Assembly (NCBI GenBank): GCA_963082975.1
Contig: OY720350.1
Location: 18,384,910 to 18,448,909, forward strand
Source: Labia minor
Taxonomy: Eukaryota > Arthropoda > Insecta > Dermaptera > Spongiphoridae
DNA length: 64,000 nt
Direction: 5' to 3'
In this document: positions 4,711 through 52,410 of the stretch, in pieces
Layout of the letters: every line of letters begins with the position of its first letter
Numbering within the stretch: the stretch's first letter is position 1
Translations under genes and position numbers: made by a program
Notes under the pieces: generated by a model
The model's database searches: none
The model's input: only the letters and a program-made list of their open reading frames with translations
What the model was told of the DNA's origin: nothing

Positions 4711-5651
4711 CTATTTATTCTTTTATCATCATTTCGAGAGTATAAATTTAGCATTTGATTTTCTGTTATTTTTCACAGACCCCATTTAAAATTCGTAATA
4801 AATTTTTATCAATAGATCTAATAACAATATAAAGATATAAAATTGTAAATATTGATTAGATGTGAATAAAATAAATAGAAAGGAGAATTGATTCATTGAC
4901 ATAATAAAATCAATGTTTATAGAGTTTTAGAAGAAACTTTATTATTATTGAAATCAAAAAGAAGAGAGATGGAAATAAATATTATTTCTTTTGCAGTGTG
5001 TCAAATGTACACTTTCTTGGCAAATTGGAAAATTCAAACAAATATTTTTAAAAATGAAAAGAGCTTTGTTCATTCAAAACTCATCGTTATTCTATAAACC
5101 AAAAAAAACAAAAAAAACAACAGATTTTAATCGATGAATTGAGCCTAAAATAATGGATCAAGAATTTTTATTATTTAAAAACTTGTTTTTTTTATGTTTC
5201 AGGGCGTAGGTATATATGCACAAAATAAAATATTTTTTATCGTTCAAAAATATAATTTAGGTGATATCAAAATTATTCGAAATTTTTTTCCATTGAATAA
5301 TTCTTTATTTACATTAAAAATGATAATTTAGTTTTATAATACATAAATCACCATTTGACAGTTTATTATTATAGTCATTATAATAAAATTTAGATTTTTC
5401 ACATACTTAAACAGAGATACCATTTTATAAAAAAGAAAAACACAAAAAAGCGTTTCTTTTTATTAAATTTTGAATTTTTTGTTGAGATTCAAAAAGCATA
5501 CATAAGTGTTTATATTTCTAAATATTGTAATTAAATTTTTACACAAAATTTAGAAACTTATCAAATCAAATAAATTATTGTAATATTAAGAAAATATAAA
5601 CAAATATATAGTATAATTAAAAATATATAATCTGACATTTTATAAAATTAT
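4711..5651. other. AT-rich intergenic DNA
   Basis: Long A/T-rich tract without transposon ends, RNA genes or coding signal. Confidence 0.4.
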
Positions 5652-6980: not shown

Positions 6981-7594
6981 TTTTTACTATCTCGCCAGTG
7001 ATAGTATTGCGATCACGAAAATTTTCGATGTTGAGATTTTGATGTTTTTATACGTTTTGAAGGTTCCTGAATTATTTTCACTTCAGGTTGAGAAAAATGT
7101 CTGTGTGTGGGTATGTGTGTGTGTGTATGTAACCAAGATTACGCAAAAACGGTTTGAGCTAGAATGATGAAATTCGGTACATGGGCATTATTCAAAATTC
7201 ATAGTTTTCTCTCAACTTTTGAGAAATGTAGCTCAACCGGAAGAGGGTCATTACTTACAACGTTTTGATTTTATTTCTTCAAAAGTGACCGTAAAAATAA
7301 AGATATATGTTTGATAATTTTTCACATGATTAATAATTGTATAAAACTGCTATATATAGAATTTCAACTTGATTGAATCACTGAATTAGAATTAGTTTTT
7401 TAACACTGCAAATCTCACGCCCCAACACTTGACGTAGTGCCATCAACAATGAGCCAAACATGCGCTGGATTAATAAATATTATTTATTAATTTTAATTTA
7501 TAATTTAATTAATTAAATTAAATTTAAATTAATATATGTTATTTAATCCAATTCAAATTTGCGAGATAGTCGAGTGGAGACACTCCAGATTTTT
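6981..7594 (+). mobile_element. Family A Helentron-like non-autonomous element (HINE), copy A1
   Basis: Starts TTTTTACTATCTCGCC. A GT-rich microsatellite lies about 130 bp in (7105-7130). The reverse complement of the 5' motif (GCGAGATAGT, 7561-7570) sits about 20 bp before the 3' end, followed by the hairpin GGAG-ACA-CTCC. The end reads CTCCAGATTTTT. This asymmetrical inverted repeat plus 3' hairpin is the HINE/DINE-1 layout known for Helentrons. No coding capacity. Confidence 0.7.
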
Positions 7595-12010: not shown

Positions 12011-13531
12011 TATAGATTTTCAGAAAGATAGTCGTAGAAATTAAGCTTTATTGCCATTAAATCGAAAGGGCCAATTGAAAAGAAAAAAAAAAAAATCTTT
12101 GAAAAACAGCGCATCAATTTCAATTCTTTTCTTTCAACGTTAAATAGAATAAATATTAATTATTAATATTTTTTTTTTGTAATATCTATTGGAGATAAAT
12201 TTAACTATTAATAAAAACTATTGTGATAGCTTTAAAAAAAGAAGAAAAAAAAAAAAAAAATAATCAACCGTGGGCCAGAAAAAAAAATATTAATAATTTT
12301 TTTTCTAATGTGAAATGATTCAAATTATAGCATAATCATTTTTATTTTTATTTTTATCTTTTCTTATCAATCTCTTTGTTTAAAACATTAAATGAATCTA
12401 TAATGCAATACATACATGACATTGGAAAAAAAGAAGAGAATACAAAAATATTTCTTTTAATTCGATTATATTTATGTACTTATATTAATTAATTTTTAAA
12501 ATGATTTTGGGCGATTGAAAGGCATTTTAATCAATTTTCTGAATATTTTTAACCATATAAAATATTATTTTTTTTTTATAAAATATGTAATATTAATTAT
12601 TCGGTTTATTTTTTAATTTAATGACTCATTCCTATTTTAAAAATATTGATGAGTCTGTTTAAAACTATTTATTTTAAAATAAAAAAAAAAAACAATTTTT
12701 TTCAATTTAATTTTTTTTTTTATTATTATTCAAAGTTATCAGTTATCAATTAATATATTCAGTTTTATATTTATTTATTTATTCATTTCTTAAATGGCAA
12801 TATATTTTGTAAGTTTATAGTTAATTTTAATTATTTATTTGTTTATTTATTTTTTTAGAATGTTAACCTAAAAGTTGATATCAAGATAGCCTGTACTACA
12901 AGGTGAAAAATATATTAAAAATCTTAATTGCTATTACATCATGAAAATAAATAAATTAAAAATTAAGATAAAAATTTAATTATATTTGTTAAAACTAAAA
13001 AAATTCTTTAAGACCTTCCTATACCCTTAATTAAACTAATATAATAATTTTATCTCTTTTGTAAGAATAATATTTTAATCTAAAAATTATTTCAAGTATT
13101 AGTATTTGTTTTTGTTTTTATGTTTTTTGGCTATTTCCAAACATTTTATGACGTGAATGCAATGTAAAATATACTTATCAACTATTATTATTTTTATAAA
13201 CAAATTCTATTTATAAAATATGTCATACAATTTTTAATTAATTAATGTTCTAATGTCAATCAATTCTAAAATTATATTTTACTTGACTTTACAATGAAAA
13301 TAGATCATTCTCGACAAAAATTTGAAATGATATAAATAATAAAAAAAAAAATAAAGATATTTAATTTCAATAATTTTTTTTATTAATAAAATATGATTTG
13401 TTTTTATTCTACAAATTTATTAAAAATTTTATTTTTTAAAATATGTACTTTTCTTTTATATAAGTGATTAGAATATTTTTGTTTTTATTTTAATTCATTA
13501 AACTAATTGATGTCATGAGTAGTGTATCTAT

Positions 13532-23093: not shown

Positions 23094-23743
23094 AATAAGT
23101 TGACCTGTGGCCAGGTCCGAACCGACCGACGGTTTGAAGTAAATTAATTTCTAGCTACAGAAACAATTTCAAATAATTTTAATATATCTATTAATGTAAT
23201 AAAAAACAGATATGAATACATAAATAATAAATATAAACCTTTTTAATTTTATTTTATTTATAATATATATGTAAGACCAGGCTGTGACGTCATGAATGGC
23301 TGGATGACGTCATATAATTTTAAATCAAGAAAAAACTAATAAATATGATTTTCCCGAGGATAAAACCAATACAAAGTGTATGATTCGTGGTGATATATAA
23401 AAAAATCTCCTCATGTGAAATTAGGTGTGAAAATAACCCTTCCCTTCCTATCGTCGATCGCTAATACTACCACTTCCGGTTTCCGGATTTGCACCAAAAG
23501 TTGATCAATTCATCCCACTGATGCATTAAGTAAATATACCAAATTTCATCAAAATCGGTTGAGCCGTTCAGGCTGTACACATCTATACGGACGGACAGAC
23601 GGACAGACGGACGGACAGACATCATGCTAAAAATACTTTTTTCTGTTTAGAAAATGCATGATTCGTGGAGATATGTAAAAATCTCCACATGTGAAATTTG
23701 GTGTGAAAACAATACCTCCCTTACTATCGTCGGTCGGTAAAAA
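23094..23743 (-). mobile_element. Family B HINE, copy B2 (full length, about 650 bp)
   Basis: Read on the minus strand it begins TTTTTACCGACCGACG and ends with the hairpin GACCTG-GCCA-CAGGTC then AACTTATT. The inverse subterminal repeat CGTCGGTCGGT lies just before that hairpin. The core holds a (GTCY)n tract (ACGG/ACAG on plus, 23588-23620), the microsatellite typical of HINEs. Two perfect CRE octamers TGACGTCA start at 23285 and 23305. A second, mutated copy of the terminal module is present inside. No coding capacity. Confidence 0.8.
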
Positions 23744-24897: not shown

Positions 24898-25460
24898 TTT
24901 TTACTATCTCGCCAGATTCGATGTTGAGATTTTGATGTTTTTATACGTTTTGAAGGTTCCTGAATCATTTTCACTAGAGTTGAGAAAAATGTCTCTGTGT
25001 GTGTGTATGTGTGTATGTATGTAACCAAGATTACGCAAAAACGGTTTGAGCTAGAATGATGAAATTTGGTACATGGGCATTATTCAAAATTCATAGCTTT
25101 CTCTCAACTTTTGAGAAAGGTAGCTCAACCGGAAGAGGGTCATTACCTACAACGTTTTGATTTTTTTTCTACTAAAGTGACTGTAAAAATAAAGATATAT
25201 GTATAATAATTTTTCACATGATTAATAATTGTATAAAACTGCTATATATAGAATTTCTAAAAGTACCAGAATTAATTTTTTAACACTGTAAATCTCATTC
25301 GCCAACACGTGACGTGGTGCCATCAATAAAGAACCAAACATGCGCTGGTTTAATAAATATTATTTATTAATTTTAATTTATAATTTAATTTAAATTAATA
25401 TAGGTTATTTAATCCAATTCAAATTTGCGAGATAGTCTAAGGGAGACACTCCAGATTTTT
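24898..25460 (+). mobile_element. Family A HINE, copy A2
   Basis: Starts TTTTTACTATCTCGCC, has a GT-rich tract near 24993-25020, the inverse motif GCGAGATAGT near 25427 and ends with the hairpin and CTCCAGATTTTT. A short 5' deletion removes the GATAGTATTGCGATCACG segment seen in other copies. It belongs to the 3'-AT subgroup with A1 and A7. Confidence 0.75.
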
Positions 25461-29590: not shown

Positions 29591-30522
29591 TTAGGTTGGG
29601 GAAAAAGAAATCCATTATTTTTTCGGTAGATGGCTGTAGTGATTGATATCTCGTAAATTATCTTTCAAACAATTTCAAATTTATGCTCGTTGTCAAGGTA
29701 ACAGTTCGCACTAAAAGAATTCGTTTGCAGTTTTTTGTTTTGTCCATTCAGTTCAGAGTTACACGGCGTTAAAGATGGAAGTCAACAAAGAGAAAATTCG
29801 GTACATTTTACAGTTTTTCTTTGATAAGGGCGAAAATGCAAGTCAGGCGGCTGAAAATGTGAATAGTGTTTATGGTCCCGATACCGTAACAGCTAATTAC
29901 GCGCAATTTTGGTTTCGTCGATTCCGTTCGGGTATTTTTAACGTTAAGGATGCCCCTCGCACAGGCAGGCCCGTCGTCGAAAATGTCGACAAAGTCACTG
30001 AAATCATCGAAGTGGACCGGCATGTTAGTAGTCGTAGCATCGCCCAGGGGTTAAAGATCGACCACAAAACAGTTTTAAACCATTTGTACAAAGCTGGGTT
30101 TAAAAAAAAGCTTGATGTTTGGGTGCCACTCCAATTAACACCAAAAAACATGATGGATCGAATTTCCATCTGCGAAGCCTTGGCCAAACGTAATGAAATC
30201 AACCCATTTCTTAAATGGATGGTGACTGGGGATGAGAAATGGGTCACATACGACAACATTATGCGAAAGCGATCGTGGTCAAAGCGTGTTTTAGTGATAA
30301 GAAATTGGCATCAAGGGAAGAGTGTGAAAATCAATTGCTGGAGTTTTTCGCTAATAAGGACCAAGACCTTTATGAGAGAGGCATAATGAAGCTACCATTA
30401 AAATGGCAACAAATTATAGAACAAAATGGTGCATATTTGACCTAAATCGGACAATGCAAAACATGTTAAATAAAGTCTTGAAGTTCACGTAAAAATAATG
30501 GATTTCTTTTTCCCCAACCTAT
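29591..30522 (+). mobile_element. mariner (irritans-like) element with internal deletion, about 932 bp
   Basis: About 30-bp terminal inverted repeats (AGGTTGGGGAAAAAGAAATC and its inverse at the right) enclose a mariner transposase remnant. A TA target duplication fits on both sides. Intact mariners are about 1.3 kb, so roughly a quarter is gone from the catalytic region. Both termini look nearly identical, so the copy may still be recognised by a transposase supplied from elsewhere. Confidence 0.9.
29775..30445 (+). pseudogene. mariner transposase, internally deleted and frameshifted
   Basis: From the ATG at 29775, just inside the left terminal repeat and a 5' UTR, an open frame of about 173 mariner-like residues carries the N-terminal helix-turn-helix region, then the linker motif WVPLQLTPKN (family WVPHELT) near residue 115, then TGDEKW near residue 150, whose Asp is the first residue of the DD34D catalytic triad. 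Near 30285 the frame jumps: the next recognisable family sequence, FSDKKLASREECENQLLEFF, is one frame over and runs to the stop at 30445. The segment with the second and third catalytic Asp is missing. A full mariner transposase has about 345 residues. The frame-1 reading continues to 30386 only as out-of-frame sequence. The protein cannot cut DNA, although its DNA-binding part is intact. Confidence 0.92.
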
Positions 30523-42916: not shown

Positions 42917-43536
42917 TTTTTACTATCTCGTAAGAGATAGCATTGCGATCACGAAAATTTTCGATGTCGAGATTTTGATGTTTTTATACGTTTTGAAGGT
43001 TCCTGAATCATTTTCACTAAGGTTGAGAAAAATGTCTGTGTGTAAGTGTGTGTGTGTGTATGTGTGTGTGTGTGTGTATGTAACCAAGATTACACAAAAA
43101 TGGTTTGAGCTAGAATGATGAAATTTGGTACATGAGCATTATTCAAAATTCGTAGTTTTCTATCAACTTTTGAGAAATGTAGCTCAACCGGAAGAGGGTC
43201 ATTAATTACAACGTTTTGATTTTTTTTCCTCTAAAGTGACCGTAAAAATAAAGATATATGTTTGATAATTTTTCACATAATTAATAATTGTATAAAACTG
43301 CTATATATAGAATTTTAGCTTGATTGATTCGCTGAAATTACCAGAATTAATTTTTTAACACTGCAAATCTCACGCGCCAACATGTGACGTGGTACCATCA
43401 ACAAAAAGCCAAACATGCGCTGGTTTAATATTTATTATTTATAATTTATAATTAAATTTAATTTAAATATAATATATTATGTTATTTATTCCAATTCAAA
43501 TTGCGAGATAGTCGAGTGGAGACACTCCAGCTTATT
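42917..43536 (+). mobile_element. Family A HINE, copy A4
   Basis: TTTTTACTATCTCG start, an additional short palindrome CTATCTCGTAAGAGATAG at the 5' end, GT microsatellite 43038-43080, inverse motif GCGAGATAGT at 43503-43512, 3' hairpin and CTCCAGCTTATT end. Confidence 0.8.
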
Positions 43537-50480: not shown

Positions 50481-51758
50481 AATAAGTTGACCTGTGGCCA
50501 GGTCCGAACCGACCGACGGTTTGAAGTAAATTAATTTCCAGCTACAGAAACAATTTCAAATAATTTTATTATATCTATTAATGTAATAAAAAACAGATAT
50601 AACATAAATATTTTTAATTTTATTTTATTTATAATATATATGTAAGACCAGGCTGTGTCGTCATGAATGGCTGGATGACGTGATATAATTTTAAATTAAG
50701 AAAAAACTAATAAAAATGATTTTTCTGGAGGATAAAACCAATACAAAGTGAATGATTCGTGGTGATATGTAAAAAATCTCCTCATGTGAAATTTGGTGCG
50801 AAAATAACCCTTCCCTTCCTATCGTCGATCGCTAATACTACCATTTCCGGTTTCCGGATTTGCACCAAAAGTTGATCAATTCATCCCACTGATGCATTAA
50901 GTAAATATACCAAATTTCATCAAAATCTGTTGAGCCGTTCAAGCTGTACACATCTATACGGACGGACAGACGGACAGACGGACAGACATCATGCTAAAAA
51001 TACTTTTTACTATCTCGCCAGAGATAGTATTGCGATCATGAAAATTTTCGATGTTGAGATTTTGATGTTTTTATACGTTTTGAAGGTTCCTGAATCATTT
51101 TCACTAAGGTTGAGAAAAATGTCTGTGTGTGTGTGTGTATGTGTGTGTGTATGTGTGTGTGTATGTGTGTATGTGTGTGTGTATGTATGTAGGCAAGATT
51201 ACGCAAAAACGGTTTGAGCTAGAATGATGAAATTTGGTACATGGACATTATTCAAAATTCATAGTTTTCTATCAACTTTTGAGAAATGTAGCTCAACCGG
51301 AAGAGGGTCATTACCTACAACGTTTTGATTTTTTTTCCTCTAAAGTGACCGTAAAAATAAAGATATATGTTTGATAATTTTTCACATGATTAATAATTAT
51401 ATAAAACTGCTATATATAGAATTTCAGCTTGATTGATTCGCTGAAATTACCAGAATTAATTTTTTAACACTGAAAATCTCACGCGTCAACACGTGACGTG
51501 GTGCCATCAACAAAAAGCCAAACATGCGCTGGTTTAATATTTATTATTTATTATTTATAATTTATAATTAATTAAATTTAATTTAAATATAATATATTAT
51601 GTTATTTAATCCAATTCAAATTGCGAGATAGTCGAGTGGAGACACTCCAGCTAATTTCTGTTTAGAAAATGCATGATTCGTGGAGATATGTAAAAATCTC
51701 CACATGTGAAATTTGGTGTGAAAACAATAACTCCCTTACTATCGTCGGTCGGTAAAAA
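50481..51758 (-). mobile_element. Family B HINE, copy B7, split by copy A5
   Basis: Family B runs from AATAAGTTGACC (50481) to AAAATACTTT (about 51003) and resumes at CTGTTTAGAAAATGC (51658) through CGGTCGGTAAAAA (51758). Family A copy A5 occupies the middle. Without it B7 is about 625 bp. Both CRE octamers are mutated (TGTCGTCA, TGACGTGA). The GTCY core lies at 50958-50990. Confidence 0.85.
51004..51656 (+). mobile_element. Family A HINE, copy A5, nested in B7
   Basis: Complete family A: TTTTTACTATCTCGCC start, long GT/GTAT microsatellite (51123-51190), inverse GCGAGATAGT (51622-51631), hairpin and CTCCAGCTAATT end. It sits in the T run of ACTTTTTTCTG in family B with no target duplication beyond T residues, as expected for Helentron insertion between two T. 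The 95-codon plus-strand frame with a valine/cysteine run is just the microsatellite. Confidence 0.9.
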
Positions 51759-51761
51759 TAT

Positions 51762-52410
51762 AATAAGTTGACCTGTGGCCAGGTCCGAACCGACCGACGG
51801 TTTGAAATAAATTAATTTCCAGCTACAGAAACAATTTCAAATAATTTTAATATATCTATTAATGTAATAAAAAACAGATATGGATATAACATAAATATTT
51901 TTAATTTTATTTTATTTATAATATATAGCTGAAGTAGCCGGCGTTACCCGAGGCTGTGACGTCATGAAGGGCTGGGTGACGTCATATAATTTTAAATTAA
52001 GAAAAACATAATGAAGATGATTTTTCCCGAGGATAAAACCAATACATTCGTGGTGATATGTAAAAAAATCTCCTTATGTGAAATTTGGTGCGAAAATAAC
52101 CCTTCCCTTCCTATCGTCGATCGCTAATACTACCACTTCCGGTTTCCGGATTTGCACCAAAAGTTGATCAATTCATCCCACTGATGCATTAAGTAAATAT
52201 ACCAAATTTCATCAAAATCCGTTTAGCCGTTCAGGCTGTACACATCTATACGGACGGACAGACGGACGGACAGACGGACAGACGGACAGACGGACGGACA
52301 GACATCATGCTAAAAATACTTTTTTCTGTTAAGAAAATGCATGATCCGTGGAGATATGTAAAAATCTCCACATGTGAAATACCTCCCTTACTATCGTCGG
52401 TCGGTAAAAA
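51762..52410 (-). mobile_element. Family B HINE, copy B8, head to tail with B7
   Basis: Starts AATAAGTTGACC three bases after B7 ends. Both CRE octamers are perfect, beginning at 51957 and 51977. The GTCY core is long (52251-52303). It carries an extra segment GCTGAAGTAGCCGGCGTTAC (51929-51948) not seen in B2, B4 or B7, and lacks 16 bp within the terminal module. Confidence 0.85.

Follow-up and report, generated by a model that had tools for sequence, protein, structure and literature searches.

Two HINE families of Labia minor with similar outer ends probably belong to two related Helentrons

Introduction

Helentrons constitute the Helitron2 branch of rolling-circle transposons. Several systems described in this class resemble two repeat families, here called A and B, that we analyzed in a 64,000-base stretch of DNA from Labia minor (the window). 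The DINE-1 elements of Drosophila, also called INE-1 or mini-me, are described as having, like A and B, subterminal inverted repeats (subTIRs) near both ends, a conserved core, a 3' stem-loop and a TT-rich insertion site (PMC2374699). This likeness is one of described anatomy: DINE-1 has a GTCY microsatellite as does B, whereas that of A is GT-rich, and the motifs of A and B are 10-11 bp long and have other sequences (PMC2374699). For D. willistoni, the same source describes three DINE-1 subtypes with different subTIRs and central repeats (PMC2374699), a direct precedent for A and B; the present case is ordinary in kind. The mite and Culex families HINE-Mo and HINE-Cq are presented as derivatives of Helentrons that encode Rep, helicase and endonuclease, with which they share subTIR, hairpin and T ends; they have a variable number of T and no clear target modification, and A and B broadly resemble them (PMC4067079). 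In addition, the palindromic 5' subTIR of A resembles that of the mite HINE (PMC4067079). Asymmetric terminal inverted repeats and hairpins are also features of Helitron2 according to a Fusarium oxysporum review, in which the Fusarium elements insert after TNAT in one group and the site of the other group is given as undetermined (PMC5148889).

The reading that we favor is that A and B are two HINE families, that is, non-autonomous Helentron derivatives, which go back to two related Helentrons that follow one landing rule, and that A belongs to a Helentron that we designate alpha.

Results

Copies of A and B in the window

A family A copy (plus strand, 51009-51650, then CTAATT) is nested within a family B copy (minus strand, 50481-51758), to which a second B copy (51762-52410) adjoins head to tail. 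The features of this interval, and further copies in the window, are as follows.

51004..51008, plus strand: TTTTT before the A copy; together with the TTT that follows the copy this makes 8 T, the empty B site having 6; mostly target DNA
51009..51656, plus strand: HINE family A copy, ACTATCTCGCC to CTCCAG-CTAATT, inside B
51009..51018, plus strand: A 5' subterminal inverted repeat ACTATCTCGC, also an arm of the 5' hairpin ACTATCTC-GCCA-GAGATAGT
51623..51632, plus strand: A 3' subterminal inverted repeat GCGAGATAGT
51637..51649, plus strand: A 3' hairpin TGGAG-ACA-CTCCA
50481..51758, minus strand: HINE family B copy interrupted by the A copy; the 5' motif reaches 51753 and the T run 51758, and CTTATT forms the 3' end at 50481
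50489..50504, minus strand: B 3' hairpin GACCTG-GCCA-CAGGTC
50508..50518, minus strand: B 3' subterminal inverted repeat, CGTCGGTCGGT in sense
51743..51753, minus strand: B 5' subterminal inverted repeat ACCGACCGACG
51762..52410, minus strand: second B copy, in head-to-tail arrangement with the one at 50481-51758; a paralogous empty site for A
6986..7588, plus strand: further A copy, ending in GATTTTT and not CTWATT
42922..43536, plus strand: further A copy, ending in CTTATT
23094..23743, minus strand: further complete B copy

Elements in which both ends are present were located by script, 6 of A and 4 of B in the window, and 6 more B elements were obtained from the loci L001-L006. A covers 4,554 and B 5,162 bases of the window, together about 15%. 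Within the listed A and B copies we found no frames of at least 160 aa; the sole such frame of the window, at 29715-30383, lies outside them. This open frame of 223 aa contains a Mos1-type HTH (HTH_48, 57.6 bits) and is probably a mariner transposase remnant. As to the two head-to-tail B copies, only ATA separates the CTTATT of one from the TTTTT of the other (51753-51765), and the pair may have arisen by insertion of one copy into the older one's T run, or else as a rolling-circle tandem.

With at most one mismatch, ACTATCTCGC matched the window 14 times (0.81 expected) and ACCGACCGACG 18 times (0.08 expected), and neither count was attained in any of 100 shuffles. Throughout the genome (604 Mb), the B 11-mer had 25,431 + 25,612 = 51,043 matches and its reversed control 50 + 42 = 92, which corresponds to roughly 25,000 copies of B if there are two motifs per copy. 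A 29-base A 5' pattern had 3,880 + 3,961 matches genome-wide, with 0 + 0 for its control.

Anatomy of the two families

Family A is composed of ACTATCTCGCCAGAGATAGT (the palindromic 5' subTIR), a GT-rich microsatellite, the core, an AT-rich stretch, GCGAGATAGT, the hairpin GGAG-ACA-CTCC, and CTWATT or GATTTTT. The order in B is ACCGACCGACG, a GTCY microsatellite, the core, an AT-rich stretch, CGTCGGTCGGT, the hairpin GACCTG-GCCA-CAGGTC, and CTTATT. In both families the 5' motif returns inverted just ahead of the 3' hairpin, as an earlier note on this DNA had described. Both are non-coding, with subTIRs near both ends and a palindrome between the 3' subTIR and the 3' end, and their ends lack the 5' TC, the 3' CTRR and the insertion between A and T of canonical Helitrons. 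The assignment of A and B to the HINEs, on the grounds of subterminal inverted repeats, a microsatellite, a short core, a 3' hairpin and a T-rich insertion site, was thereby upheld.

According to a published rule, the members of a family have at least 11 bp of identical subTIR in common (PMC4067079). ACTATCTCGC and ACCGACCGACG do not, and A and B are therefore different families. The description of the two as unrelated is nearly right for their bodies, but the core TGATGAAATTTGGTA is common to both with 17 of 18 bases matching, and it directly follows the microsatellite at offsets 184 and 189. The ends CTTATT or CTAATT that had been ascribed to both families describe B well, as 11 of 12 B ends over all sequence read are CTTATT, but they are not general for A, in which CTWATT was found at 7 of 11 ends over all sequence read and at 4 of 8 in the window, the remaining 4 being GATTTTT. 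These four window ends (7588, 8175, 25454 and 57964) read CTCCAG-ATTTTT and not CTCCAG-CTWATT, and A therefore has two 3' subtypes. Positions 276-370 of the B consensus are a second, diverged copy of the B 5' region 1-93 (about 86-87% identical); an older B 5' end may have been extended by a newer one.

The T run and the landing rule

The observation that almost every copy has five T was accurate for A, with exactly five T before AC in 6 of 6 copies, but less so for B, with exactly five in 15 of 22, six T in 2 and an interrupted run in 5 (copies found by script; 28 copies in all). The script passed over some window copies, such as the A copies at 24903 and 57127, in which five T are likewise present. 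When the 5 interrupted runs are set aside, five T are present in 21 of 23 copies, for which the p-value ranges from 4.5e-6 to 2.7e-3 depending on the null, with T runs drawn randomly from the window.

Searches for empty sites were made with 15 joined flank pairs. One gave a clean site (that of the A copy at 51009), 2 gave only the tandem-B junction, 1 gave an AT-rich stretch, and for the other 11 we found no match that spans the join. The site in B at which this A copy is inserted reads AAATAC-TTTTTT-CTG; it is unfilled in 21 aligned B stretches, of which 19 have six T and 2 have five by eye count, whereas 5 + 3 T are present where A has been inserted. L001 contains a B copy within another B copy, at the same position as A and again with 5 + 3 T. 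At a third junction, that of a B-started unit in the leader of alpha (see below), 5 T became 5 + 2 T. The net gain is two T at each of these three junctions with paralogous empty sites, and of the five T in TTTTTAC, three or more therefore belong to the target. Insertion thus takes place in a T-rich site with T on both sides. For comparison, Helitron2 insertion is listed as occurring between TTTT and T or C (PMC5148889), and T strings of 2 to 5, variable in number, are reported for Culex Helentrons (PMC4067079).

The gain of two T fits two element-borne T and a TT target duplication alike. A and B could accordingly be MITE-like cut-and-paste elements with a 2-bp TT target duplication, a duplication that was once proposed for DINE-1 (PMC2374699), and a gain of exactly two T at three junctions is what such elements would leave. 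We regard this as highly improbable, given the asymmetric subterminal repeats and the 3' hairpin of both families and two further observations, on the A 3' end and on the B-started unit, that are given below.

A and B were inserted at one and the same position of a common target repeat and changed the number of T in the same way, so that the machineries behind them obey a single landing rule. The identical position and the net gain of two T in each case also speak for a single Helentron that moves both A and B, its Rep reading the outer termini only, and so does the occurrence of TTTTTAC and CTWATT in many copies of both families. We consider this unlikely, since the five T are mostly target, 4 of the 8 window A 3' ends lack CTWATT, and the subTIR and the hairpin differ between A and B. 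Another possibility, to which we give little weight, is that the Rep and endonuclease of alpha move several HINE families with unrelated subterminal repeats, the landing being decisive (five T into a T run, net gain two T); if so, one enzyme would have left its footprint in placing A and B at an identical base of one repeat. The favored reading of two related Helentrons accounts for the same position by a common landing rule.

A Helentron with the 3' end of A

Alpha was read in two copies, L046 and L054, with 98.6% identity across 6.4 kb. Each of them terminates in GCGAGATAGTCGAGTGGAGACACTCCAGCTAATT, which is exactly the A 3' subTIR, hairpin and CTAATT, and the flanks beyond differ, so that a Helentron with the same 3' terminal sequence as A is present in two places. 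Over the last 60 bp, alpha L046 is 81.7% identical to each of two A copies and 46% identical to B, A and B being 52% identical to each other; the value for alpha and A is above the 80% threshold for a subfamily (PMC4067079). That the 3' end of A is the end of an element with Rep and helicase is the first of the two observations against cut-and-paste transposition.

The 5' side of alpha was read in one copy, L046, as L054 is truncated on that side. In the stretch formed by L057 and L046, positions 819-1569 correspond to A positions 1-494 followed by 285-521 again (an internal duplication), and the A 3' terminus lies at 12952-12988. An A 5' end without an A 3' end of its own is thus located 12.2 kb upstream of the 3' end of alpha, on the same strand. 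The sequence spanning A-521 recurs once, at 98%, on contig C60, where a Rep lies on the same strand about 22.6 kb from the A junction; a search for the alpha C-terminus on C60 found none. Other repeats, including one that is common in the genome, lie between A-521 and the alpha leader. It is likely that the 5' terminus of alpha is also that of A, and A would then be an internal-deletion derivative of alpha. Unlike HINE-Mo and HINE-Cq as they are described (PMC4067079), A and alpha have in common only the outer 38 bp of the 3' end with the adjoining CTAATT, and some 520 bp on the 5' side.

In L046, alpha has a single open frame of 2181 aa, which in L054 is broken into several frames; a third, decayed copy is present on C10. 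The alpha protein has matches above the cut-offs to DUF6570, Rep and PIF1, the PIF1 match being in the Rep frame (E 1.9e-31, 109.8 bits, cut-off 25.9). The Rep of alpha contains SYERVEFQMRGSPHEH, with the S in RGSP and the aromatic-x-R before motif 2, which are the residues given as diagnostic for Helentrons, Helitrons having L (PMC4067079). A match to Exo_endo_phos_2 is weak (E 0.0003, 21.1 bits, below the cut-off of 27.4), and alpha probably carries an endonuclease; in the Fusarium review, no fungal element is reported to have one (PMC5148889). The C-terminus (L046, C1:47863894-47865339, minus strand) has a weak Ulp1/SENP8-like match (Pfam C48 17.7 bits, below the cut-off; SENP8 E 0.016), which suggests that alpha probably ends in an Ulp1-like cysteine protease domain, whereas the proteases described for mite and Culex Helentrons are OTU-like (PMC4067079).

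Weak matches to the alpha endonuclease (36% identity, query residues 175-248) were also seen at C1:4735048, 2936741, 6380765 and 1135317. In all four cases an A 5' end is found 382-384 bp away, on the other strand; by eye, this applies to 4 of the 9 matches that fall in the part of C1 covered by the list of A copies. At those places, A may belong to a larger unit that is itself repeated.

The B-started unit and the Helentron beta

In L046, a unit that starts exactly at TTTTTACCGACCGACG sits 1.1 kb downstream of the A segment. The alpha leader repeat flanks this unit on both sides (2399-2709 and 4827-5105, 89%), and the uninterrupted counterpart of its site was found at 2393 and 5094 of the same L057 and L046 stretch, which indicates that the unit is inserted. 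Its 2.1 kb are made up of B 1-530, which lacks the 3' subTIR and hairpin, and of some 1.6 kb of leader sequence behind it; this leader sequence also precedes another Helentron, beta (L056). L051, a near-copy of beta L056, encodes a protein with 50% identity to alpha across 1409 residues. Of the 15 leader matches among the best candidates scored, 3 have the junction of B-530 to the leader and the other 12 the leader alone. In the simplest account, the terminator of a B HINE next to a Helentron leader would have been lost, and a later transposition from the 5' end of this HINE would have run into the neighbor. Such read-through fits rolling-circle transposition and is the second observation against cut-and-paste elements.

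One alpha locus thus carries the A 5' and 3' ends together with a B-started unit, which speaks for a single Helentron moving both families; but the B unit is nested, with leader repeats on both sides. The terminal repeats of alpha are those of A at the 3' end and probably at the 5' end, and those of B occur only in this nested fragment within its leader, so that the claim of the earlier note that one Helentron drives both was not sustained. Alpha as one element with a B 5' end and an A 3' end was likewise rejected, on account of the leader repeat on both sides of the unit and because no more than 3 of the best candidates scored show B joined to the leader.

The origin of B itself would, by inference, be a further, related Helentron. 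A special case of the favored reading is that B derives from beta (L056/L051), A with alpha and B with beta forming matched pairs, a proposal that we put forward only tentatively. A B 5' region (a damaged B copy) precedes the leader of beta in L056, with TTTTTACCGACCGACG as the exact start of B 1-530; this start was also seen in a second place, where the flanks differ. The link lies on the 5' side of beta, which was read as far as an OTU-like domain (L059, OTU 24.2 bits). However, the junction occurs in so few of the leader matches scored, and at C6:22376036, one of the leader-alone matches, there is room for a complete B 3' end between the adjoining B and the leader. These positions suggest that B was inserted as a HINE and that about 98 bp of it were lost afterwards.

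Other Helentrons and Helitrons, and family H

Genome-wide, at least 104 profile matches to PF14214 and at least 46 to DUF6570 were obtained, and 18 candidate regions were read (8, then 4, then 6). L039-L042 are canonical Helitrons (RGLPH in L039 and L040), among which L040-L042 represent a separate Helitron that ends in CTA after a hairpin. Helentrons with RGSPH are L044-L047 and L051-L054. The canonical Helitrons were rejected as partners since no A or B end is present at their boundaries, which are known for L040-L042. Gamma (L043-L045) was rejected as a partner of B as far as it was read, the B copies upstream of L044 being on the opposite strand. A hairpin scan for CTWATT-like ends in L045, L047, L051-L053, L055 and L056 gave nothing convincing and recovered the A hairpin in L046. 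The search proposed earlier, for a Rep/helicase Helentron with TTTTTAC and CTWATT ends, thus led to alpha with the exact 3' end of A, but no partner of B was found. At C5:46739897-46792979, five Helitron_like_N matches with identical scores and stop counts are spaced 9.8, 9.8, 5.7 and 5.7 kb apart and look like a tandem array of a degenerate Helitron copy.

A third family, H, bears on the outer ends. L048-L050 have a 2.4-kb unit in common that is 99% identical and has different flanks, and parts of it show 92-98% identity to L047, where a Helentron protein of 1754 aa is encoded. The unit starts with TTTTTAATACACTTTACTTAA (six T in L050) and ends with TTAAGTAAAGTGTG ... AAATTTATT; it has a third subTIR, yet the same outer style, with a TTTTTA start and a TTATT end. 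As H is tied to another Helentron, TTTTTA and TTATT do not single out one partner, and the same end style in H argues against one Helentron for A and B. The inference from shared outer termini to a common autonomous partner was only partly supported, as these termini are mostly target T and bases that also occur in H.

Discussion

The observations on A, B and H can be arranged in a model in which the Rep would recognize family-specific subterminal repeats, peel off one strand from the 5' end and stop at the 3' subTIR and hairpin. The strand would then be joined to a nick at a short run of T, so that five T stand on the left and two T are gained in all. TTTTTA and TWATT at the outer ends would reflect the landing rule and recur across families, while family identity would reside in the subTIR and the hairpin. 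For a broken terminator, this model would predict a unit such as the B-started one, which lacks the 3' subTIR and hairpin and runs about 1.6 kb onward. The two families may still be cross-mobilized by one Rep, but we consider a common autonomous partner less probable than a pair of related Helentrons that share their landing rule.

Helentrons are described as carrying deubiquitinases of different classes (PMC9741609), and an Ulp1-like domain in alpha beside an OTU-like domain in beta would fit this published variety. In a literature search on this point, judged by titles and the beginnings of abstracts, we recognized no account of a Ulp1-like domain in one Helentron where a related one has an OTU-like domain.

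For this class of elements, the present case means that shared outer ends are weak evidence for a common partner. It provides a concrete pair of a Helentron and its HINE as well as three junctions with empty counterparts, and the B-started unit is probably a natural example of the loss of a 3' terminator.
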